A stretch of DNA of 64,000 bases from Actinomycetes bacterium. GTDB lineage: Bacteria > Actinomycetota > Acidimicrobiia > Acidimicrobiales > RAAP-2. How positions within the stretch are numbered: position 1 is the first letter of the stretch; every line of letters starts with the position of its first letter. This document shows, in pieces, positions 36,368 to 50,435 of the stretch. The translations under genes were made by a program, and so were the position numbers. The notes under the pieces are model-generated. The model searched no databases. It was not told the origin of the DNA and saw only the letters and a list, made by a program, of their open reading frames with translations. The stretch covers positions 62,001 through 126,000 of the forward strand of contig JAJZUS010000001.1 in NCBI GenBank assembly GCA_021848365.1, in the 5' to 3' direction.

Positions 36368-36934
36368 TCACTTCGTGAAGTTCTCCCAGTAACGACTCGC
36401 CGTCGGTCCCCGCTGCCCGCGGTACTTGGACCCGAGTCCCGCCGATCCGTAGGGCCGGTCGGCCGGCGTCGTCATCTCGAAGAAGCTGATCTGGCCGATC
36501 TTCATGCCCGGGTAGAGCGTGATCGGCAGGTTGGCGACGTTCGACAGCTCGAGGGTGAGGTGTCCATCCCACCCCGCGTCGACGAAACCCGCGGTCGAGT
36601 GAATGAGGAGCCCCAGGCGCCCGAGCGAGGACTTCCCCTCGAGTCGCGCGACCAGGTCGTCGGGGATCACCACGCGCTCGATGGTCGACCCCAACAGGAA
36701 CTCGCCGGGGTGCAGGATCATCGGGTTGGTGGGGCCGACGTCGATCAACTCGGTGAGATCCTCCATCGGCTCGCGCACGTCGATCACTCGACGGGAGTGA
36801 TTGCGGAACGCGCGAAACAGTTGATCGACGTGGAGGTCGACCGACGACGGCTGGATGCAGTCCTCACCGAGCGGATCGATGACGATCCGACCCGAGGCCA
36901 GCGCCTCCTTGATGGACCGGTCCGAGAGCACCAT
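36368..36934 (-). CDS. dcd: dCTP deaminase
   Basis: [12 protein letters not shown]...[17 protein letters not shown]...[34 protein letters not shown]...[12 protein letters not shown]. Confidence 0.95.
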
Positions 36935-37047
36935 GACGCTCGTCACGCTACTCGCCGGAAACCCGACGGTTCGGCCCCGCACGGGCGCACCACCCCGAGA
37001 CCCGCAACTGGCCGGACCTCGAATCCCACGACTACGATGGCGGCCAC

Positions 37048-37121
37048 GCGGGTGTAGTTCAGCGGCAGAACATCAGCTTCCCAAGCTGAGAACGCGGGTT
37101 CGATTCCCGTCGCCCGCTCCA
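37048..37121 (+). tRNA. tRNA-Gly (CCC), CCA end encoded
   Basis: Acceptor stem GCGGGTG/CGCCCGC, anticodon loop TTCCCAA, T-arm CGGGTTCGATTCCCG, TCCA 3' end. Confidence 0.94.
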
Positions 37122-37566: not shown

Positions 37567-39486
37567 ATGAACCTTCTACGTGGCACGCCGGTGCCGATGG
37601 TTACCATCGGAACGATGCTGGCGTATCTAGCCACCAAGGATGAATTCGTGCGCGACGCGCCCAGCATCGCCGACATCGTTCAAGACTCGGTCCGACAGCA
37701 CTTGGGCATCTCGATCGCGCACGGTTCGTCGGAGTACTCCTCGTGGCAGAACTCGCTGGGCAACGCCATGTTTCACGTCATGAACAGCCCCGATGTACCG
37801 GCCGACGCCGGCGTTGCCGTCGAATATCGAATCAACGGCCGACGGCAACGAATCGACTTTCTCGTTGCGGGGATGGACGAGCGGGGACAAAAGAATCTCG
37901 TCATCATCGAACTCAAGCAGTGGTCGACCGTTGACGCCTCGCCCCTCCGCGATTGCGTGCGGACATTCGTCGGTCACTCGACGCGTGACGTCATCCATCC
38001 CTCCTACCAGGCGTGGTCGTACGCTCGGCAGCTCCTGGACTTCTACGAAGTCGTCGAGGCGGACGACATCCGCGTCCATCCCTGCGCGTACGTCCACAAC
38101 TGCGACCAACCGGGTCCGTTGTTCGACAGCGGGCTGGCCCCGATCCTCACGAAGGCCCCCCTCTTCATCCAGGGTGAGCACCTCAAGCTCCGATCCCACA
38201 TCGCTAGTCGGGTCCAGACGGGACCAGGAACCACTCTCCTCGAGAGCGTTGACACGAGTGCCGTTCGGCCGGGCAAGCAGCTCGTCGAGGCACTGACCGA
38301 GATGCTCGACGGCAACGAGGAATTCACCCTCGTCGACGAACAGAAGTTGACTCTCGAGCAGATCGTCGACCTCGCGCGTCGTACCGCAGCCACGGGCAAG
38401 AGCGTGATGCTCGTGAAAGGAGGCCCGGGTACGGGCAAGTCCCTGATAGCCGTGAACAGCATGGTGCGCTTGAGCCAGGAGGGCTTGAACGTCCGCTACG
38501 TCACCAAGAACGCGGCCCCCCGTCGCGTCTACGAGCGCAAGCTCCAGGGTCGGTACCGCGCCGCCGACATCCGAGAGATGTTCGTCACCTCGGATGCCTT
38601 CCGCGAAGCAGAGCGGGACGCCTATGACGTCCTCCTCGTCGACGAAGCCCACCGGCTCCCCCTCCGCGGTGGTCTCTACGGCAACCTGGGCGAACATCAG
38701 GTGAGGGAGATCATTCGCAGTGCGCGGACGAGCGTCTTCTTCGTCGACGAGGACCAGATGGTGACCTGGCGCGACGTTGGCACCGTGGCGGAGATCGAGG
38801 AGTGTGCGACCGCGGAATCTGCCGCCCTCTCCTCGACCGAGCTCTCGAGTCAGTTTCGATGCGCGGGCGCCGAGGAGTACATGGACTGGCTTGACGCCAC
38901 CCTCGGGCTCAATGATCAGCAGCCGAGCCCCCTGCCGGTTTCGTCTTTCGACTTCCGAGTTCTCGACGACCCAGAGGAACTCCGCGAATTGATCGTGGAG
39001 AAGAACCGATCCAACAATCGATCTCGTCTCGTAGCGGGCTATTGCTGGAATTGGGTGAGCCGACGTGATCCCCGCGCCTACGACATCGAGATTCCCGGCA
39101 CTCGATTCAAGATGAAGTGGAACCTGGAGACCGACGGGTCGACCTGGATGATCGAGCCGCACTCGGTCGACCAAGTGGGCTGCATTCACACGGCGCAAGG
39201 CCTCGAGTGCGAGTACGTAGGCGTCATCATCGGACCGGATCTCATCGAGAGAGACGGCGACCTCGTCACCGATCCCTTCGCACGAGCGAGGACCGATCAG
39301 TCCCTCAAGGGATTCAAGCGGGACCTCGATCGGGATCGCGACGGGGCACTTCGTCGTGCCGATCGATTGATTAGGAACACCTACATGACACTCATGTCGC
39401 GCGGCATGAGTGGTTGCTACGTCTACTGCACTGACGACGGCGCGCGCGACTACTTTCGGCGAGCAACTCGTACTCACTCAAACTGA
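37567..39486 (+). CDS. DUF2075-family ATPase/helicase with PD-(D/E)XK-like N-terminal domain
   Basis: RIDFLVAGMDERGQKNLVIIELKQW nuclease-like core; Walker A VKGGPGTGKSLIAV; Walker B DVLLVDEAHRL; ELSSQFRCAGAEEYMDWLD. Confidence 0.85.
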   Translation: MNLLRGTPVPMVTIGTMLAYLATKDEFVRDAPSIADIVQDSVRQHLGISIAHGSSEYSSWQNSLGNAMFHVMNSPDVPADAGVAVEYRINGRRQRIDFLVAGMDERGQKNLVIIELKQWSTVDASPLRDCVRTFVGHSTRDVIHPSYQAWSYARQLLDFYEVVEADDIRVHPCAYVHNCDQPGPLFDSGLAPILTKAPLFIQGEHLKLRSHIASRVQTGPGTTLLESVDTSAVRPGKQLVEALTEMLDGNEEFTLVDEQKLTLEQIVDLARRTAATGKSVMLVKGGPGTGKSLIAVNSMVRLSQEGLNVRYVTKNAAPRRVYERKLQGRYRAADIREMFVTSDAFREAERDAYDVLLVDEAHRLPLRGGLYGNLGEHQVREIIRSARTSVFFVDEDQMVTWRDVGTVAEIEECATAESAALSSTELSSQFRCAGAEEYMDWLDATLGLNDQQPSPLPVSSFDFRVLDDPEELRELIVEKNRSNNRSRLVAGYCWNWVSRRDPRAYDIEIPGTRFKMKWNLETDGSTWMIEPHSVDQVGCIHTAQGLECEYVGVIIGPDLIERDGDLVTDPFARARTDQSLKGFKRDLDRDRDGALRRADRLIRNTYMTLMSRGMSGCYVYCTDDGARDYFRRATRTHSN

Positions 39487-39574
39487 CGTGAGGGTCTGCC
39501 CTCGGATCAGACCCCAACACCTTTGCGCGTACCCGAATCGGTACGTCAACTCGTACACAGGCAACGTGCGGCGG

Positions 39575-40531
39575 TCACCCCTGAAAGACGAGGTCGCGGT
39601 GGTACTCGAGATACGGACGCTGTTCCGCGGAGAAGGGTCGAGTTACCGCGAGGGATCCCAGATGCCACTTGTTCACCACCTCGACGTCAACCGCGGACGC
39701 GAAGACGATCGCACCGGCGTTCGTGAAGGTCACGAGACCACGATCGAAGAGGTGGTCCACATGGGGGGAGAGCAGGAGACCATTCGCGCCGTCTAGGCGT
39801 TCGAGACTAGATCCGTCGCGCCACGGCTTCATATGGCTCGCGATGAGGTGCTGCTGGACCGCGAGTCCCGTAACTCGACACAGGGGTTCACGTTCGGCAA
39901 CCCGTCGCCGGAAGATACCTTGCCCTACCCGTGACAGAGCCAGTTGTCGACGCTCCGTCCTCGTCATGTTCTCTTCGCCGAGAAGCTCCTCGGCACCCTT
40001 GAGGACGTCATCCCACTCCCGGTCGTGATCTGAACAGCCCAGTGTGGTACCCGCACGGTTCTGACACTCCTGGAGTAGCCGTGACCCGAACGCCGGTGAG
40101 AGTTCGAACAGGTATGACTGATTCACGCGCCCCGCCTCATTCATGGGTCCGTGCGCACGCTGATCGGCGTTGTAGAGGTCGAGCAGGAGACGGGGGTCAA
40201 CACCCGAGTCCAAATACTCGAAGTCAACCAACACCTCCCACCCATCATCACTCCAGTAGGTTCCCGCTGATCCGAACTCAGGCTTCGGGCTCGACGACGC
40301 ACTTGCGACCGCAACCCCTACCGCACTGATTGCACCGCGGAAGTAGCTGAAGACAACATCGCCGACCTCGACACGAAGCATGTTGTCGTAGAAGGTACTG
40401 CGACGTCCGTTCGCATTGGTCTTCGGCGCCCACATGAACCCGCCGTCTACCTCGTAACGCCAGGTCTGACCTTGGTTGACCCACCAAAATGCCACTGAGC
40501 CGGAGCTTACCGAGAGGGTGATTGCTGTCAC
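39575..40531 (-). CDS. HNH endonuclease with EVE/PUA-like N-terminal domain (start uncertain; ORF reaches 40669)
   Basis: N-term FWWVNQGQTWRYEVDGGFMWAPK...VEVGDVVFSYFRGAISAVGVA (EVE-like); C-term CRVTGL...LIASHMKPWRDGSSLERLDGANGLLLSPHVDHLFDRGLVTF (HNH_2). Confidence 0.8.
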   Translation of the reverse strand: MTAITLSVSSGSVAFWWVNQGQTWRYEVDGGFMWAPKTNANGRRSTFYDNMLRVEVGDVVFSYFRGAISAVGVAVASASSSPKPEFGSAGTYWSDDGWEVLVDFEYLDSGVDPRLLLDLYNADQRAHGPMNEAGRVNQSYLFELSPAFGSRLLQECQNRAGTTLGCSDHDREWDDVLKGAEELLGEENMTRTERRQLALSRVGQGIFRRRVAEREPLCRVTGLAVQQHLIASHMKPWRDGSSLERLDGANGLLLSPHVDHLFDRGLVTFTNAGAIVFASAVDVEVVNKWHLGSLAVTRPFSAEQRPYLEYHRDLVFQG

Positions 40532-40810
40532 AATCCTCTCTTCAGGAATTCGTGCAGCAAACCGCTGCCCCTTTTGCGGCAGCGACTCACGCACCTCACG
40601 ATCGATTCTGCCTCTGGGATCTAATCCAGAGTCCCGGCTAAGGACGATCCTGCTGCGTGTTCCTCTCACGGCTTGCCTTTAGCCTTCCCGTTGGAGTCTT
40701 TTACTCGGCGCCTACTACTTGCTCCGCAGTGATGGGCTCGTCACCAATCGCCGAAATGGTCCTTTTGCCCGTCAACGGCAGAGCTAACACGCATCCGGTA
40801 GACCCTTGAT

Positions 40811-43549
40811 ATGAAAGTACGTGAGTGGTCGTGTTCCACCTTTGGTGTCAAGGTCGCCCCAGACGATCTCGTCGTAACGACACCGCGGGCCACGTGGCAT
40901 CTCGATCGCCGCGAAGAACTTGTCCCGCATGTCCGCCGACGGCTTCTCCGGTATCGGGTCTACGTCGGAAAGTCACAGGTTCTCGCACTGGGACGCTGCA
41001 GCAAAGCTGACGCCGCTGAGCTGACCGCGTGGGTCCTCCTTTGGCGTCTAGTCCCGCAACTTGATGAGACGATTGATTGGGCCGCTCGCACGAAGGCATT
41101 CCTCAAACTCCGGCTCGACGAGCGCCGGTGGGTCACACGGGAGGACGTTGACTCACTTCGCTCCGAGATAGCGCCTCGGGAACTACTTCAGCAATGTCGG
41201 GAATACAACTGCACACACCTGCTCTCTTCGGACGAGCTCGCTGACACGGAACTTGCCGCTGGCGGCCTTCTCACTCTCGTCGATGCCACAAACGAGCAGA
41301 TCACCGAGTTCGAGCTCGAGGACCGCCAGTCGTTCTTTAACAGCATCGAGAAGTCGCCGCTCAGCGAGGAACAAGCGCGGGCGGTCATCTGCTTTGACAA
41401 CCGCGTGCAGGTCCTGGCAGCGGCCGGTTCTGGCAAGACGTCGACAATGGTGGCAAAGGCGGCCTATGCCGTCACTCGAGACTTGGTACCACCTGATCGC
41501 ATCCTCCTGCTCGCCTTCAACAAGGCGGCGGCAGCAGAGCTCCAGCAGCGGATCGAGGCACGCTTCGCAGCAGCGGGAATTCCGGCTAAAGGAGTGAAGG
41601 CTGCCACCTTCCACTCATTCGGCCTGGAAGTCATCGGGAGGGCCACCGGTCGCAAGCCCAGGTTGGCGCGATGGCTCGAGCAGGATAGGGAACTCGAGAT
41701 GGTCATGACCATCGTGGACGACCTTCGAGATCGGCTTCCAACTTTCCGATACAACTGGGACCTCTACCGACTCCTCTTCGCGAGCGCCTCGACCTCGCTC
41801 GAGAGTGCGCAGCCCGATGGCTACGACTCGGCGACAGGGTCGACTGGGTATCGCACGGCGTCCGGCGTGCTCGTCAAAAGCGAGGGCGAACGACTCGTCG
41901 CAGACTTCCTGTTCTTCAATGGCGTCGAGTTCGAGTACGAGCGCCCGTATGCGCACGACGTGGCTGACGCTACGCACTCCCAGTACCAACCGGACTTCTA
42001 CTACCCCAGCATCGACACGTGGCACGAACATTGGGCACTTGACCGCAATGGCAAGCCGCCCTCGGAGTTCATCGGATACGAGCGAGACATGGCTTGGAAG
42101 CGGGAGCTACATCGCACTCGCGGGACGTCACTGATCGAGACCACGTGGGCCGACGTAGTCTTCGGCGACGGCCTTCAAGCATTCGGTGACGAGATGACCC
42201 GCCGAGGGGAACACCTCGACTGGAATCCAGATCGACCGCTCAGGGACAGTTGGCACCAGACCCTCAAGCACGAGGACCTCGCTCGTCTTGTACGTACCTT
42301 CATGTGCCACGTGAAGTCGAATTCTTCGTCGCCGGTTGACATCGAACGTCGACTGGCGAACGAACTCAACTCAGCAGAAGGCTACAGGACTCGTCTATTC
42401 CTCTCTATCTACTGGCCCATCCACGACGAGTGGGAACGACGGCTAGTCGAGGACGGCAGCGTGGACTTCGAAGACATGCTCGTTCGTGCGGGTGAACTCC
42501 TTGAGTCCGGCGCTCTCAATCCGGCCTACGACCTGATCTTGGTCGACGAGTTTCAGGATTCGAGCCAGGCGAGAGCACGTTTGGTGCGTGGCCTAGCCAA
42601 GGGAGCAGGTCGTCACCTCGTCACCGTCGGTGACGACTGGCAATCGATCAATCGTTTTGCTGGCGCAGACCTTTCAGTGATGACGGGTTTCGAGAAGTGG
42701 TTCGGAGTCGGCTCGCAATTGTCGTTGACCACAACGTTCCGGTGCGCGCAGCCAATCTGCGACGTTGCCCGAGCGTTTATCATCAAGAACCCCGAGCAGT
42801 TCGACAAGCCTATGAGATCGTGGCAGCCCAACTCAATGGCGGCCATCACTGTCATCTTCACTAGCAACGAACGCACATCAATTGCGGACCTTGTGAAGCG
42901 ACTGGGCAACGACGTTGATAGCGATACAAGAGGCGAGAGAAGGTCAATTAATGTCCTTGGTCGATACGGATTTCAGCGAGACAACATGCCCCGGTCAGTG
43001 CCGGACGGTCTCGACCTCACATTCCGAACAATCCATGGCTCCAAAGGGCTAGAAGCCGACTACATCATCATCCCCGGAATGACCACCGGGACATATGGGT
43101 TTCCCTCCAATGTCGTGGACGACCCGGTACTCGAATTAGCGATGCCAAGACCTGAGACATTCGCACACGCTGAGGAGCGCCGTCTCTTCTATGTCGCGCT
43201 CACCCGAGCCCGCCACGGCGTCTTCCTCTTAGCGCCTGTAGATCGACCATCACCGTTCGTGGTTGAGTTGATGGCGGACCCACATGTATCTGTCGAAAGT
43301 GACGATGGGCCGTCGGTGAGCATCTGTCCTAAGTGCCACCAGGGGACGCTCGTACAGCGTTCCGGCCGATACGGAGCATTTTCGGGGTGCAGTCGCTTCC
43401 CGGCCTGCGACTACAGAGTTGCTGCGAAGTGCCCTGCGTGCGGCACCGGAAGGCTCGTATCTCGCCGGGGCCCATACAGCGAGTTCATCGGTTGCTCCAA
43501 CTATCCACAGTGCCACCACACTCAGAGACGTGGGCAATCTCTCCCTTGA
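40811..43549 (+). CDS. UvrD/HelD-like superfamily 1 helicase with nuclease-like insertion and C-terminal topoisomerase-type C4 zinc fingers
   Basis: 912 aa; VLAAAGSGKTSTMVAKAAYA, LILVDEFQDSSQARARLV, FRTIHGSKGLEADYIII; YQPDFYYPSIDTWHEHWAL; two CPxC-x17-C-x5-C fingers near the C-terminus. Confidence 0.88.
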   Translation: MKVREWSCSTFGVKVAPDDLVVTTPRATWHLDRREELVPHVRRRLLRYRVYVGKSQVLALGRCSKADAAELTAWVLLWRLVPQLDETIDWAARTKAFLKLRLDERRWVTREDVDSLRSEIAPRELLQQCREYNCTHLLSSDELADTELAAGGLLTLVDATNEQITEFELEDRQSFFNSIEKSPLSEEQARAVICFDNRVQVLAAAGSGKTSTMVAKAAYAVTRDLVPPDRILLLAFNKAAAAELQQRIEARFAAAGIPAKGVKAATFHSFGLEVIGRATGRKPRLARWLEQDRELEMVMTIVDDLRDRLPTFRYNWDLYRLLFASASTSLESAQPDGYDSATGSTGYRTASGVLVKSEGERLVADFLFFNGVEFEYERPYAHDVADATHSQYQPDFYYPSIDTWHEHWALDRNGKPPSEFIGYERDMAWKRELHRTRGTSLIETTWADVVFGDGLQAFGDEMTRRGEHLDWNPDRPLRDSWHQTLKHEDLARLVRTFMCHVKSNSSSPVDIERRLANELNSAEGYRTRLFLSIYWPIHDEWERRLVEDGSVDFEDMLVRAGELLESGALNPAYDLILVDEFQDSSQARARLVRGLAKGAGRHLVTVGDDWQSINRFAGADLSVMTGFEKWFGVGSQLSLTTTFRCAQPICDVARAFIIKNPEQFDKPMRSWQPNSMAAITVIFTSNERTSIADLVKRLGNDVDSDTRGERRSINVLGRYGFQRDNMPRSVPDGLDLTFRTIHGSKGLEADYIIIPGMTTGTYGFPSNVVDDPVLELAMPRPETFAHAEERRLFYVALTRARHGVFLLAPVDRPSPFVVELMADPHVSVESDDGPSVSICPKCHQGTLVQRSGRYGAFSGCSRFPACDYRVAAKCPACGTGRLVSRRGPYSEFIGCSNYPQCHHTQRRGQSLP

Positions 43550-43926: not shown

Positions 43927-45348
43927 ATGGATGATCTGACCGAACACTCGTCGCGTACGGATGAGGGTTCCCAGAAGAGGGCCCGCGACATCGAGCGCCA
44001 CGGCATCAATCTCATCCCGGAGTCCGACCGCAAGATGAGCCTGAGTCAGCTCTTCTGGGTGTGGTTCGGCGCCAACGTGATCTACGTCTACATCATCGAC
44101 GGTGCTCTCATCGTGGGATTCGGACTGAGCTTCTGGCCGGCGATGGCCGTCGTCCTCCTCGGGAATCTCTTCTACGTCCTGCTCGGTCTCACGTCCGTAG
44201 CGGGCTCACGGGCCGGCACGGCCATGCTCGTGGTATCACGAGCGGCCTTCGGCCTGGTCGGCAATCGCGTCGTCGCCTTCCTGAGCTGGCTGACCGCCGT
44301 CGGCTGGGAAGCGGTGAACATCGTCATCGGCACCCTCTCTCTCGTCGAACTCGTGCAGTTGACCGGCGTGAACGGAGGAGCGGGGCTCAAGCTCGCGTGC
44401 CTCGTCGCGATCATCGCCCTGACCTTCAGCGTCACGATCTTCGGTCACGCGATGATCACTCTCGTCAACCGCTTCTTGTCCTACGTACTAGGACTCGGAA
44501 CCCTCGTCCTGGGCATCTACGTGGTTCCCAAGATCCACCTCGGCTTCCGACCCCACCCCCTGCCGGGCATCTCCGGGACGGGAGCCTTCCTGTTGGCCCT
44601 CCTCGTCATGACCGCCGCACCCGTCTCCTGGTACAACTGCGGCTCGGACTACTCGCGCTATCTCCCCACGAAGACTCGGGGTTCACGCATCGCGGTGGCG
44701 ACGGCACTCGGCGGCTTCATTCCGAGCGTCCTCATCACCTTCGTCGGTGTCGCCGCGTCCACCGCGACCGACATGTCGAACCCCATCAGTGGGCTGCAGC
44801 ACCTAGTCCCCTCCTGGTTCTTCGCCGTCTACCTCGCGGTCATCGTCGGTGGGACGATCACCAACAACTTCCTCAACACGTACTCGTCCTCGATGAGTCT
44901 GCTGACTCTGGGTCTGCGCATGAAGCGCTACAAGGCGGTCTTCATCGACGCCAGCCTCGGGACCGCGATGTCGGCGTACGCGCTCTTCGTCAGTGACTTC
45001 ACCAACTCCTTCATCAACTTCCTCAACCTGATGGTGCTGTGGCTGGCCCCCTGGTGCGGCGTCTACCTGGCCGATGCGTGGCTGAGGAGGGGTCGGTACG
45101 AGGCACCGGCCCTTCACACGGTGGGCGGTCGATACTGGTACACGAAGGGGTGGAACGTCCCCGCGATCGCCTGGCTGGCCATCGGGGGACTCGCCGCCTC
45201 GCTCTTCTCGGCGAACGCCGAATGGCAAGGGCCATTCGTGAACAGCCTCGGTGGTGGCGACCTCTCGATCTTCGTCGGCCTGTTCGTCGCGGGACTGGGT
45301 TACTACGCCACTCAGCGCAATCGAGTGGACCGCGAACTGACGGCGTGA
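43927..45348 (+). CDS. NCS1 family (cytosine/purine-type) permease
   Basis: SLSQLFWVWFGANVIYVYIIDGAL...GSRAGTAMLVVSRAAFGLVGNRVVAFLSWLTAVGWEAVN; polytopic. Confidence 0.85.
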   Translation: MDDLTEHSSRTDEGSQKRARDIERHGINLIPESDRKMSLSQLFWVWFGANVIYVYIIDGALIVGFGLSFWPAMAVVLLGNLFYVLLGLTSVAGSRAGTAMLVVSRAAFGLVGNRVVAFLSWLTAVGWEAVNIVIGTLSLVELVQLTGVNGGAGLKLACLVAIIALTFSVTIFGHAMITLVNRFLSYVLGLGTLVLGIYVVPKIHLGFRPHPLPGISGTGAFLLALLVMTAAPVSWYNCGSDYSRYLPTKTRGSRIAVATALGGFIPSVLITFVGVAASTATDMSNPISGLQHLVPSWFFAVYLAVIVGGTITNNFLNTYSSSMSLLTLGLRMKRYKAVFIDASLGTAMSAYALFVSDFTNSFINFLNLMVLWLAPWCGVYLADAWLRRGRYEAPALHTVGGRYWYTKGWNVPAIAWLAIGGLAASLFSANAEWQGPFVNSLGGGDLSIFVGLFVAGLGYYATQRNRVDRELTA

Positions 45349-45441
45349 TCCGGGGGATCGAATGGGCACGCGCGCGGTCGAGGTCCCCGCTCCTCGCGTT
45401 CGTGACCGGGAGCTCTAACGTCTCGAACAGGAGGGGTGACG

Positions 45442-46386
45442 ATGTCCGCATCGATTGAGAACCAGCACTACCCGGACACCGAGTGGGGTGACCCCCATCC
45501 CCGTCGTGAGTGGTTCCACGTGCGCCAGCTCGATCCGGGCGTGCACCTGATCTCCGAGCCCGGTCACGTCAACTCGTACCTCGTCGAAGGCTCCGACGTC
45601 GCCTATCTGCTCGACACGGGACTGGGCGTCGCCAACATTCGCCGGGTGGCGGAGAGCCTCTCCGGCAAGCCCCTCGAGGTCATCAACACCCACTACCACT
45701 TCGACCACACAGGGGGGAATCGACTCTTCGAGAGGATCTCGATCCACGAGAGCGGCGCCGAGCTGCTGCAGCGTCCGGCGTCCCCGGAGACGGCGTCGGC
45801 GTACATGGAGTACACCCAGCGACTTCTGGAGGCGTGGGTCAACTACAAGGAGTCGGACGACGTGTACTTCCACCTTCTGACGGCCGAGCGGCTGCTGCGC
45901 CCCCTGCCCGAGGGCTTCGATCCGTCCGACTACCAGATCGTCCCCACGGTGCCCACGCGGCTGCTCCACGACGACGACGTCCTCGACCTCGGGGGGCGCC
46001 AGCTTCGCGTCCTCCACACCCCCGGCCACTCTCCCGACAGCATCTGCCTCTTCGACGAGAAGAACGGCCTGCTGTTTGGCGGCGACACGATCAACACGGG
46101 GCCCATCTACGCCCAGACGGACGAGTCCGATCTCGAGGCCTTCGCCCGCTCGACGGCTCGACTCGCCGATCTGGCTTCGTCCGTCAGCCGCGTCTTCGTC
46201 TGCCACTTCATGCGGATGGAGAACCCGCCCGTCCTGCTTCGAGAGGTCGCCGACGGATTCCAACGGATTCTGGACGGGAGCGCGACGTACCGCCGCAACG
46301 TGGACACGTACAACTCGCCGGTGCGGGAGGCGTGCTTCGACAACTTCTCGGTCTTCATCAGCGAGAGCGCCGAGCTCGGCGACTGA
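45442..46386 (+). CDS. MBL-fold metallohydrolase
   Basis: VINTHYHFDHTGGNRLF (HxHxDH), HTPGHSPDSICLFDEKNGLLFGGDTI. Confidence 0.9.
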   Translation: MSASIENQHYPDTEWGDPHPRREWFHVRQLDPGVHLISEPGHVNSYLVEGSDVAYLLDTGLGVANIRRVAESLSGKPLEVINTHYHFDHTGGNRLFERISIHESGAELLQRPASPETASAYMEYTQRLLEAWVNYKESDDVYFHLLTAERLLRPLPEGFDPSDYQIVPTVPTRLLHDDDVLDLGGRQLRVLHTPGHSPDSICLFDEKNGLLFGGDTINTGPIYAQTDESDLEAFARSTARLADLASSVSRVFVCHFMRMENPPVLLREVADGFQRILDGSATYRRNVDTYNSPVREACFDNFSVFISESAELGD

Positions 46387-46730
46387 CGTCGGCGCCGTGC
46401 GGCGACGGGTCGGTGCTCGGCTGTTCGGATGCAATGAACGGGTCGCGCCGCCGTGGGTGGGACGACCCATTCTCGCGACCGCGTCACCTCGAACGAACGA
46501 CGCGTCCACCCCGATTCGCCGCCGCCGGCCGCGATCCGCGCCCCACCGGGACCGATGTGGCCGAGGTCGACGACTCGGCGGTGGCGTCGTTCCCACCCTC
46601 GAGGTCGAGTACCGCGGGACGCGATCCAACGACGACGTTCGATGGTGTCCCCCGTTCGGAGTCCGTTATTCTGACGTTGCCCCTCGTCCCACGGTGGAGC
46701 GAGTGCTCACACGAAGGGCAAGTGAGCGTC

Positions 46731-47534
46731 ATGCGTAAGAGTGGAGTCTCCGACAACCAGAAGGTCTTGGACCGGATGCGTCGGATCGACACCCTCAGTC
46801 CGGTCCCCTACTACTACCAGCTCCAAGAGGCACTCAAGCAGGAGATCGATGCGGGTTCGTGGCGACCCGGGGATCGGCTTCCCTCGGAGTCGGAGCTCTC
46901 GACGGAGTTCGGGATCAGCCGCACGGTGATCCGTCAGGCCCTCGACGTCCTCGAGGCTGACGCCCAGGTGAGGCGAATCAAGGGGAAGGGGGCATTCGTC
47001 TCCGAGCCCAAGCTCCTCTACCAGATACCGCCGACCGGGGACGAGATCTCCACGGGGGGCGGTGACGTCTCGGCCAAGGTCATACGCGTCATCGACGCAT
47101 CACGGACGACGGTGAACGACAGTCTCCTCCAGATCCTCGAACTGACGACGAGATCCGAGGTCTTCGAGTTGACCGTGCTCCAAGCGGTCCATGACACGCC
47201 CGCGTCCCTCAGCCACCTGTACCTCCGCGTCGACGCGTCGCCGGCGCTGCTGACACTCGCCGAGACCGACCAGCTACCCGAGGTGCGCGCCGATGAGGAC
47301 GACGCCCTCGTCCAGCTGTCCCGCCGATACCACATCGATGCGGCGTACTCGGAGGTCACCGTCGAGGCCACGTCGGCGAACAAGTTCGAAGCCGATACCC
47401 TCCTGATCGAAGTCGGCCGCCCGATGTTCCTGCTGAGCAGCAGGGTCAAGCGGACCGACGGCCTCACGCTCGGCTTCATGCGCTCCGTCGTGCGAACCGA
47501 CTACTTCCGGTTCTCCATCCGCATCGACCACTGA
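46731..47534 (+). CDS. GntR family transcriptional regulator (UTRA type)
   Basis: YYYQLQEALKQEIDAGSWRPGDRLPSESELSTEFGISRTVIRQALDVLEADAQVRRIKGKGAFV. Confidence 0.9.
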   Translation: MRKSGVSDNQKVLDRMRRIDTLSPVPYYYQLQEALKQEIDAGSWRPGDRLPSESELSTEFGISRTVIRQALDVLEADAQVRRIKGKGAFVSEPKLLYQIPPTGDEISTGGGDVSAKVIRVIDASRTTVNDSLLQILELTTRSEVFELTVLQAVHDTPASLSHLYLRVDASPALLTLAETDQLPEVRADEDDALVQLSRRYHIDAAYSEVTVEATSANKFEADTLLIEVGRPMFLLSSRVKRTDGLTLGFMRSVVRTDYFRFSIRIDH

Positions 47535-47749
47535 GGCTCTCTCGCATCCGAGCGACTTCCCCGGGTCCTCGAGTGATCCGCGCACCACCACGTCGACACG
47601 AGCCACTCACGGAGATGTCCGACGATGGTCCCGACCCGGAGCCGTGGACCCCCTATCTGGCCGCTCCTCGCCTTCGTCAGCGGAGGCGACAGTGCCCCCG
47701 TCGCAACCCCGTGTCCCCGCTCGAGGGGACGACGGACCGATGGGATCGG

Positions 47750-48400
47750 TCAGTTACCCGTGACGAGCTCGTTACCCCTCAGGAGTCGGGTCGCCATGTC
47801 GGCGTAGAGCTCGGCGATCTGGTCCAGCGTCAAGGAGCCGTCGGGTCGATACCACTGCGCCACGCCGATCCCCATCTCCAAAATCGCGTAGACCGCCACC
47901 CGGGGTGACGGTATCGAGAACTCCCCGCTGTCGAGACCCTCTTGGATGAGCTGGCGCCACTTGTTCTCGTAAGCGCTGCGCAGGCTCACGACCACGTCGC
48001 GCGCCGGTCGCTCGAGGCTCGGGATCTCCCGATTGCCGATGCGGACCTCGCGAGGATGCACCGCGTGGTAGCGGACGTGGGCCTCCATGGCCTGGCACAC
48101 GCGCCGGGAGGGGCTGCCCGTCGTCGTCGCCCGGTCGAACTCCTCGTTGAGCTCGCGCATGGTCGTCACCATGATGTCGACGAGGATCTCGTGCTTGGAC
48201 TTCAGATGGTTGTAGAGGCTGGGCCCTCGGACGCCCACGAGCCGGCCGATGTCTTCCATGCTCGTCGCGTGATACCCGCGCTCGGCGAACAGCGTTAGCG
48301 CGGCTTCACGAATGTCGACGAGGCGATCCCCTCGGGAGACGGGACGCCCCGAGACCCGGCCGCCATTCGTGGTCTCCGCGCTCGATTGGCCTTCAGTCAT
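47750..48400 (-). CDS. TetR family transcriptional regulator
   Basis: RLVDIREAALTLFAERGYHATSMEDIGRLVGVRGPSLYNHLKSKHEILVDIM. Confidence 0.92.
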   Translation of the reverse strand: MTEGQSSAETTNGGRVSGRPVSRGDRLVDIREAALTLFAERGYHATSMEDIGRLVGVRGPSLYNHLKSKHEILVDIMVTTMRELNEEFDRATTTGSPSRRVCQAMEAHVRYHAVHPREVRIGNREIPSLERPARDVVVSLRSAYENKWRQLIQEGLDSGEFSIPSPRVAVYAILEMGIGVAQWYRPDGSLTLDQIAELYADMATRLLRGNELVTGN

Positions 48401-48865
48401 GTTCCGATCCGCCGCATGCCGCGCCAGCCAGGGTCGATCGATCGTCCCCGTCTGTCGCCTCGGTGGGCCGCTGATGGCCAACCGGGTTCGCCCGGGCCCT
48501 CGTTGATGGCCGGAGCTCTCTGCTGGAAGACGGTACACCGACCCTCGCCGGTGAGCGCTGATGATACGCGCCGGTCGCGGCGAGTGGTCGTCGGATCTCG
48601 CAGAGGCCCGGAGGTGTCGCGCCCGACCACGGCTTCCGGCCGATCCCCCGGGGTCACCGCTCTCAGTGTCGACGGTCAGCGACCGAATGGGTGGGACGCG
48701 TACGGTCGGGCCGCTCCGCTCGTGGTCGGCGTCTCGCCACCCGGCTTCCGGCCCGAGGCCGACCACAGACGGGAGCTGCGCCCGACGGGCGGACGCCGCA
48801 CCCCCTCGATCAGCACCTTCGGGTGGCCGAGGACATTCTTCGCACGGGTGACGTCGCTGCACTAA

Positions 48866-48889
48866 GGTAACTAATGAGTATTAGTTACC
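48866..48889. promoter_or_regulatory. Inverted repeat GGTAACTAAT-GAGT-ATTAGTTACC, candidate TetR operator
   Basis: Perfect 10-bp arms in the intergenic region between divergent TetR and dehydratase genes. Confidence 0.75.
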
Positions 48890-48929
48890 CACGAGTGGGC
48901 GCCAACGCCGCCTACGGGAAGGGAGCGCA

Positions 48930-50435
48930 GTGGCCCTCAAGACCCCCCTGGAGTACGTCGACAGCCTCCGTCGACTGAAGATCCGCGCCTACGTCGGCGG
49001 CGAGATGGTGGACAACGTCGTGGACCACCCGCTCGTCGCCCCGCACATCAACACGGTCGCGAAGACCTACGAACTGGCCCACGACCCCGAGCACCGCGAC
49101 GTGATGACGGCGATCAGTCACCTGTCCGGAGAGCGGATCCACCGCTACACCCACATCTTCCAGAATCCCGACGACCTGGTGAAGAAGATCCAGATGCTGC
49201 GCTTACTCGGCCAGACGACCGGGACCTGCTTCCAGCGCTGCGTCGGCCTCGACGCGCTCAACGCCGCCTACGCCGTCTCCTACGAGATCGACCAGGCCAA
49301 GGGCACCGACTACCACCAGCGCTTCACGAAGTACCTCGAGTACGTCCAGCGCGAGGACCTGATGCTGGCCGGCGCGATGACGGACCCGAAGGGCCACCGA
49401 GCGAAGAAGCCGTCGCAGCAGGCCGACCCCGACCAGTTCGTCCACGTGGTGGAGCAGCGGCCCGACGGCGTCGTCATCCGAGGGGCCAAGGTGCACAACA
49501 CCGGCGGCATCAACTCCCACGAGGTCCTCGTCCTGCCCGGAACGGGACTCGCGCCCGGCGAGGAGGAGTTCGCGATCGCGTGCGCCGTCCCCGCGGACGC
49601 GGAGGGAGTCCTCTTCGTGTTCGGACGCCAGTCCAACGACTCGCGCAAGCTCGAGGGTTCGTGGGACATCGGGAACACCCGTTTCGGGGTCGTCGGCGGC
49701 GAGGCGATGGTCGTCTTCGACGACGTCTTCGTGCCCAACGAGCGCGTCTTCATGAACGGCGAGGTCGAGCACTGCGGGACACTGGTGAACTACTTCGCCA
49801 CGTGGCACCGAGCGAACTACGGCGGCTGTAAGGGTGGGAACGCCGACGTGCTCATCGGCGCGACGGCCAAGATGACCCGGATCCTCGGGACCGATCGCAA
49901 CGCCATCGTGAAGGACAAGCTCATCGAGATGATCCACCGGAACGAGACCACTTACGCGTCGGCCATCGGGTCGAGTGCGCTGGGGTACCAGTTGCCGTGC
50001 GGCTCGTACATGGTCGACCCCATCCTGGCGAACACCGTCAAGCAGAACATCACGAGGAACGTCTACGAGATCGGGCGGATCAGCCACGACCTCGCCGGAG
50101 GGTTCCTCGCCACGATGCCGGACGCCGCCTCGTTCGAGCACCCCGAGGTCGCCCAGTGGGTCCGCAAGTACTACGGGGCCAATCCCGAGTACGACGTCAC
50201 CGAACGCATCCGTGTGGGCCGCTACATCGAGAACATGACCAGCGTCACCACCATGGTCGAGGCCATGCACGGAGCGGGGTCACCCCAAGCCCAGCGGATC
50301 GTCATGCTCGGCCTGGCCGACCTCGAGGGGAAGGTCAAGCTGGCCGACGAGGTGATCTACGGCACCGACGACGTGCCCGGCCTGGCCCTGCCCCCGGTCA
50401 ACGAGCCACCGTCGAGCGACGGATCCGATCTCTAG
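48930..50435 (+). CDS. 4-hydroxybutyryl-CoA dehydratase-like (4-hydroxyphenylacetate 3-hydroxylase superfamily) flavoprotein
   Basis: TGTCFQRCVGLDALNA (CxxxC) and WHRANYGGCKGG (H-x6-C) correspond to the Fe-S ligands of AbfD; start GTG 48930. Confidence 0.85.
   Translation: MALKTPLEYVDSLRRLKIRAYVGGEMVDNVVDHPLVAPHINTVAKTYELAHDPEHRDVMTAISHLSGERIHRYTHIFQNPDDLVKKIQMLRLLGQTTGTCFQRCVGLDALNAAYAVSYEIDQAKGTDYHQRFTKYLEYVQREDLMLAGAMTDPKGHRAKKPSQQADPDQFVHVVEQRPDGVVIRGAKVHNTGGINSHEVLVLPGTGLAPGEEEFAIACAVPADAEGVLFVFGRQSNDSRKLEGSWDIGNTRFGVVGGEAMVVFDDVFVPNERVFMNGEVEHCGTLVNYFATWHRANYGGCKGGNADVLIGATAKMTRILGTDRNAIVKDKLIEMIHRNETTYASAIGSSALGYQLPCGSYMVDPILANTVKQNITRNVYEIGRISHDLAGGFLATMPDAASFEHPEVAQWVRKYYGANPEYDVTERIRVGRYIENMTSVTTMVEAMHGAGSPQAQRIVMLGLADLEGKVKLADEVIYGTDDVPGLALPPVNEPPSSDGSDL

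Follow-up and report, generated by a model that had tools for sequence, protein, structure and literature searches.

Three predicted defence-type nuclease genes behind tRNA-Gly(CCC) at an integration hotspot in an actinobacterial genome

Modification-dependent restriction endonucleases in which an EVE domain is joined to an HNH nuclease have been characterized biochemically in VcaM4I and TspA15I (PMC7897488); VcaM4I and its relatives cleave DNA containing 5-methylcytosine or 5-hydroxymethylcytosine and restrict T4gt, and crystal structures exist for the family (PMC7897488). Other described proteins relevant to the present locus are the single-gene defence proteins Nhi (SERP2475) and AbiO, the Schlafen group 3 helicases and Dna2, DNA helicase IV of Escherichia coli, and T7 endonuclease I, a PD-(D/E)XK enzyme. 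In addition, MutT homologues have been found beside homologues of SauUSI (PMC7641849), and MazG has been catalogued as a predicted but untested defence domain (PMC13092281). Here we compare with these systems three consecutive genes, A, B and C, lying within the window, by which we mean the whole 64 000-nucleotide stretch of actinobacterial DNA that was analysed. The reading that we favour, with a probability of roughly three in four, is that an integrative element has left its remains at tRNA-Gly(CCC), alongside three mutually independent, defence-type cargo genes, B serving in type IV restriction and A and C being DNA-degrading nuclease-helicases (Table 1).

Table 1. Features of the tRNA-Gly(CCC) region in window coordinates, and loci in which a MazG-like gene adjoins a homologue of gene A.
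Feature	Position	Strand	Basis
dcd (dCTP deaminase), left border of hotspot	36368-36946	-	TIGR02274, 213 bits; sister genomes have it beside the FeS gene and tRNA-Gly
tRNA-Gly(CCC), integration target	37048-37121	+	ARAGORN; in sister genomes beside dcd and followed by variable DNA
Scar: 45 C-terminal residues of a tyrosine integrase	37448-37314	-	Match to sister integrase C-termini
Gene A, predicted fusion of a PD-(D/E)XK nuclease and a Schlafen-group-3 (DUF2075) helicase, 639 aa	37567-39486	+	
Putative nuclease domain of A, residues 55-176 (E86, D97, E115, K117, Q148, Y152)	37729-38094	+	Alignment of homologues and model
Helicase domain of A, residues 278-623 (Walker A GGPGTGK, Walker B DEAH)	38398-39435	+	PF09848, E=1.4e-92
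Gene B, predicted EVE-HNH modification-dependent restriction endonuclease, about 306 aa	39575-40495	-	
Gene C, UvrD helicase resembling helicase IV, with nuclease-like insertion and two zinc ribbons, 912 aa	40811-43549	+	
Inserted endonuclease-I-like domain of C, residues 345-465 (E360, D395, E406, K430)	41843-42205	+	Conservation; weak Phage_endo_I match
Two topoisomerase-type C4 zinc ribbons of C, residues 838-905	43322-43525	+	Zn_ribbon_Top1, 85 bits, cut-off 32
Loci with MazG ≤500 bp from A homologue: L052, L053, L055, L056, L057, L058, L081, L083, L084, L098			
Further such loci: L114, L115, L118, L126, L128, L129, L130, L232, L233			

All three genes are intact open reading frames with the boundaries given in the first-pass annotation. 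The product of gene B has 306 residues if, as is probable, the GTG at VAFWWVNQ is its start, the open frame itself extending to position 40669. Genes A and B are convergent, with 88 bases separating their ends, and B and C are divergent, so the three do not share a common operon; the strands (A and C forward, B reverse) agree with the earlier remark that they are not co-directional. Their GC contents of 61.8% (A), 60.4% (B) and 59.3% (C), against 69.8% for the window, and GC3 values of 0.78, 0.69 and 0.68, respectively, against 0.86-0.99 in the flanking genes, mark all three as foreign in composition. To the right of C (window positions 43927-49000), the GC content is still 62-67%, and this segment encodes a nucleobase permease, an MBL hydrolase and regulators of the GntR and TetR types.

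The setting of the genes was studied by comparing the dcd/tRNA-Gly locus across sister genomes of the same genus. The DNA behind the tRNA varies among them, and the scar is 55-64% identical to the C-termini of integrases found at the same locus in five sister genomes (L066, L068, L069, L076 and L077), two of which have full-length integrase open frames, of 370 residues in L068 and 371 in L077. The L068 protein was recognized as Phage_integrase by Pfam; the scar alone gave no Pfam match. Moreover, one sister genome (G165, locus L060) has an EVE-HNH homologue, 37% identical to B, at the same spot directly behind the tRNA, the contig stopping inside that gene. From the varying DNA, the sister integrases and the EVE-HNH homologue together, we conclude that the tRNA-Gly/dcd site is an integration and cargo hotspot and that the window carries a decayed element there. 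The first-pass annotation had described three large nucleic-acid enzyme genes lying consecutively in lower-GC DNA beside a tRNA and an integrase scar, and this description is borne out. In locus L068 (15509-18211), a gene resembling a replication initiator accompanies the intact tyrosine integrase at the tRNA-Gly site, an arrangement like that of an integrative element. We rejected dcd as a member of the cargo, it being a conserved gene of the genus, and likewise an intact element bounded by attachment repeats, because neither the window nor the genome yielded another copy of the tRNA 3' end. Given that no right-hand attachment repeat was found, the cargo may stem from several events; an integrative element would have entered the chromosome at tRNA-Gly(CCC) and either left behind, or then been joined by, the three genes.

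Gene B is, with high confidence, a type IV, modification-dependent restriction enzyme of the VcaM4I type, as judged from its sequence. Pfam recognized the HNH_2 domain (38 bits) and gave no match to the EVE part, but a phmmer search of solved structures matched residues 15-317 of the open frame to residues 3-307 of VcaM4I (PDB code 6yex) along the full length, with E=1.1e-72, and B thus has the same two-domain architecture as VcaM4I and TspA15I. All 13 of the pocket and active-site residues that we checked are identical to those of VcaM4I, namely Q10, T11, E15, W22, P24, W82, Q128 and Y130 of the binding pocket and H224, N241, D250, H251 and D254 of the HNH domain. The EVE pocket would most likely flip out 5-methylcytosine or 5-hydroxymethylcytosine in incoming phage or other foreign DNA, and the HNH domain would cut the DNA. 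The earlier identification of B as an EVE-like reader fused to HNH_2, an architecture of modification-dependent restriction enzymes, was therefore correct; an undescribed function, proposed for the combination, does not apply to B, as crystal structures and experimentally tested phage restriction are already on record for its family (PMC7897488). What sets B apart from VcaM4I and TspA15I is a new host lineage and a specificity that is, for B, a prediction. A domain resembling the EVE part of B (38% identity) also occurs within a 1427-residue open frame in loci L107 and L125 (G324:C7:38067-38477).

The helicase of gene A matches SLFN-g3_helicase, as the DUF2075 family is now called in Pfam, with 311 bits against a cut-off of 24. 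Its N-terminus alone gave no Pfam match. The elements of a nuclease core (E86, RxD97, E115-L-K117-Q-W and Q148xxxY152) are invariant in 19 homologues from bacteria and archaea, and the helicase motifs are also kept across the 19 aligned sequences. The predicted structure of this region, with pLDDT values mostly of 80-93, has a PD-(D/E)XK alpha-beta core. Sequence and model together indicate that A joins a PD-(D/E)XK nuclease bearing a QxxxY motif to a Schlafen-group-3/DUF2075 helicase, which upholds its first-pass assignment as a DUF2075 ATPase with a PD-(D/E)XK-like core. Homologues occur in bacteria and archaea, on plasmids and in viral contigs, and their neighbours include restriction-modification genes, McrBC, GmrSD, a YhcG-type nuclease, NERD and GIY-YIG proteins, which is a defence-like setting. 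No account of DUF2075 in defence was found in a literature coverage that was partial and very sparse on this family.

Among described proteins, Nhi and AbiO have a motor related to the SF1/DUF2075 motor of A, with PADLOC scores of 40-44 bits over about 180 residues. However, A matches only about 150 of the 470 positions of these models, leaving its N-terminal nuclease uncovered, and its family is, unlike Nhi and AbiO, often paired with MazG (see below). We therefore rejected A as an AbiO or Nhi protein, the match being to the motor and not to the whole model. The PADLOC candidate PDC-S41, to which no function is assigned, matches parts of both the nuclease and the helicase of A, weakly in A itself (28 bits) and with 58-67 bits in some of its homologues. 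A fold search with the model of A returned RecD2, Dna2 and human SLFN11 and SLFN14 at low TM-scores, and A differs from the Schlafen proteins in that its nuclease is an N-terminal PD-(D/E)XK domain with QxxxY, as against the Schlafen core RNase fold. Much like Dna2 or Nhi, the protein would most likely load onto a DNA end or gap and move by means of its SF1/Schlafen-type motor, with degradation of the DNA by its Cas4/RecB-like nuclease.

Gene C was matched by Pfam to UvrD-helicase (140 bits) and to two copies of Zn_ribbon_Top1. Its closest described relative is DNA helicase IV (NCBIfam NF008276), at 366 bits, below the equivalog cut-off of 543, and C differs from the E. coli enzyme in its inserted nuclease-like domain and zinc ribbons. 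Against the model for HelD of Bacillus subtilis (NF041464), a factor in RNA polymerase recycling, it scored 32 bits with a cut-off of 419, and we rejected that identity. The first-pass view of C as a UvrD/HelD-like helicase with a nuclease-like insertion and C4 fingers accordingly stands for the UvrD core, the insertion and the ribbons, while the likeness to HelD gives way to one to DNA helicase IV. The predicted structure (pLDDT 87.8) matches the folds of UvrD, Rep, AddA and RecB. We also rejected C as GajB of the Gabija system: GajB models match its UvrD core, but the island has no GajA-like (OLD-family nuclease) gene.

The insertion in C lies between helicase motifs, and its residues E360, YxPDF, E406-H, K430 and H434 are kept in 13 homologues and mostly kept in 31; E360, D395, E406 and K430 are invariant in both sets. 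Residues 355-399, spanning E360 and D395, show a weak match to Phage_endo_I (E=0.025), the best to any family and the basis of the likeness to T7 endonuclease I, although the usual E-x-K spacing is replaced by E406-H-W with a later invariant lysine, K430. Weak scores and conservation thus suggest homology, and it is likely, but not certain, that the insertion is an active nuclease. Most likely, C would unwind DNA in the 3'-5' direction as a UvrD/helicase-IV motor, the endonuclease-I-like domain would nick or cut it and the zinc ribbons would hold single-stranded DNA. Homologues were found in 100 plasmid records and also in viral contigs, several at prophage edges, and no conserved neighbour emerged over about 50 loci; C is a solitary cargo gene. 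In a set of related prophage-like contigs (L154, L156-L159, L163, L183, L185 and L186), the homologues adjoin tail and peptidase genes at one end, in a cargo-like position. One Acinetobacter plasmid (L091:282-10202) encodes, close to its C homologue, another UvrD-like helicase together with a multiubiquitin-domain protein and a ThiF-family protein.

The adjacency of the three genes in one island might suggest a single anti-phage system of several components, with the EVE-HNH reader marking modified DNA for destruction by the two nuclease-helicases, and reader-HNH proteins do lie near some A homologues (a DUF3578-HNH protein in Priestia, and reader-like HNH proteins in Nocardiopsis and in viral contig L130). 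We consider such a system highly improbable. The strands are mixed, C lacks a conserved neighbour, and in the sister genome G165 the B homologue follows the tRNA directly, although on a contig that ends within it. In a sample of 296 genomes of the class, A was found in 8, B in 6 and C in 3, and in 296 genomes of the phylum the counts were 14, 7 and 2, respectively, several of the B hits in these samples spanning only one of its two domains. The families are therefore rare and patchy in the class, and the only genome in either sample with more than one of them was the window's own; another genome, G540, combines A with an HNH-only match. Single-sequence scans of viral contigs for A, B and C found nothing; profile scans found relatives of A and C. 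We rejected the three genes as one system on their co-occurrence, and since the window's genome alone has more than one family, the combination is most simply explained by chance accumulation at a hotspot. Of the first-pass proposal of an anti-phage candidate island, what survives is a mobile hotspot with defence-type nucleases and a restriction role for B; the three genes as a unit do not.

A more serious alternative, which we nevertheless think unlikely, is that only B serves in defence and that A and C are DNA repair, recombination or element-maintenance enzymes of mobile elements, through Dna2-like end processing and helicase-IV-like recombination, respectively. Both could be repair or maintenance enzymes, and neither has a tested close relative; C is closest to a host repair helicase, the fold matches of A include RecD2 and Dna2, and many C homologues are on plasmids and prophage-like contigs that themselves need repair functions. 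On the other hand, A and C are, unlike repair genes, rare and patchy in the class (8/296 and 3/296), A homologues lie beside restriction genes, and C occupies a cargo position at the edges of prophages, at a distance from replication genes. Both are intact members of little-studied nuclease-helicase families that are found on plasmids and in viral contigs, in defence-like settings. Independent defence-type cargo, with putative anti-phage activity of A and C, is the reading that we retain.

The neighbours of the A homologues provide the more novel lead and the part most worth following. Among 35 A loci other than the window (18 genomes, 12 plasmids and five viral contigs), a MazG-like nucleotide pyrophosphohydrolase gene lies within 500 bp of the A homologue in 19 and within 4 kb in 21, on either side of it and often overlapping; all three of the products tested were MazG-like by Pfam. 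At the same threshold, no MazG hit was found in 175 other loci (1.87 Mb), a non-random control sample with which the contrast is nonetheless large. The literature, as partially covered, yielded no description of a MazG-DUF2075 system. On the tree of A proteins, the presence of MazG changes eight times in 22 rows without clustering, and one pair of proteins 90% identical differs in it. We therefore rejected MazG as an obligate partner; it is a frequent but optional one.

No MazG-like gene was found near A in the window, nor, with one distant query, elsewhere in its genome. A might be the orphan of a MazG-A module, weakened here or using another partner, and the frequency of MazG in the other A loci, its absence from the controls and its presence in three members of the clade of five to which the window's A belongs would be in keeping with this. 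We find the idea doubtful, because MazG has often been gained or lost, even between nearly identical proteins, and because A in the window retains every invariant residue.

Nucleotide-cleaning enzymes also appear elsewhere in the material. In two of the six plasmid loci inspected (from Sphingomonas and Priestia), a B-type EVE-HNH gene adjoins a gene for a MutT-like pyrophosphohydrolase, and such (d)NTP pyrophosphohydrolases lie beside EVE-HNH or DUF3578-HNH genes at L238:4573-4983, L242:4330-4716 and L084:3960-4334. They are possibly sanitation companions of modification-dependent restriction genes. Near A homologues we observed genes directed against modified DNA, namely DUF3578-HNH, accompanied by MutT (Priestia), and, in other loci, McrBC and GmrSD. 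At L085:11597-12957 and L130:6574-7925, the A homologue has MazG and a reader-like HNH protein nearby, possibly as a three-gene set; the HNH proteins of the two loci share 44% identity. A tentative proposal, to which we give about one chance in three, is that MazG and A form a widespread, undescribed anti-phage module and, more generally, that nucleotide-cleaning enzymes (MazG with A, and MutT-like enzymes beside EVE-HNH or DUF3578-HNH) accompany nucleases attacking modified DNA, where they may prevent the incorporation of modified dNTPs into host DNA or detect nucleotide pools altered by phage.

In this locus, unrelated nucleases of defence type have accumulated at a tRNA integration site of an actinobacterium with a small genome. 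Among them is a confidently assigned EVE-HNH enzyme whose 5mC/5hmC pocket is intact. The locus also draws attention to two understudied families, the MazG-associated nuclease-helicase represented by A and the helicase-IV/endonuclease fusion represented by C. The pairing of A with MazG extends across bacteria, archaea and viral contigs and, if the proposal is true, would tie the control of nucleotide pools to DNA-targeting defence.
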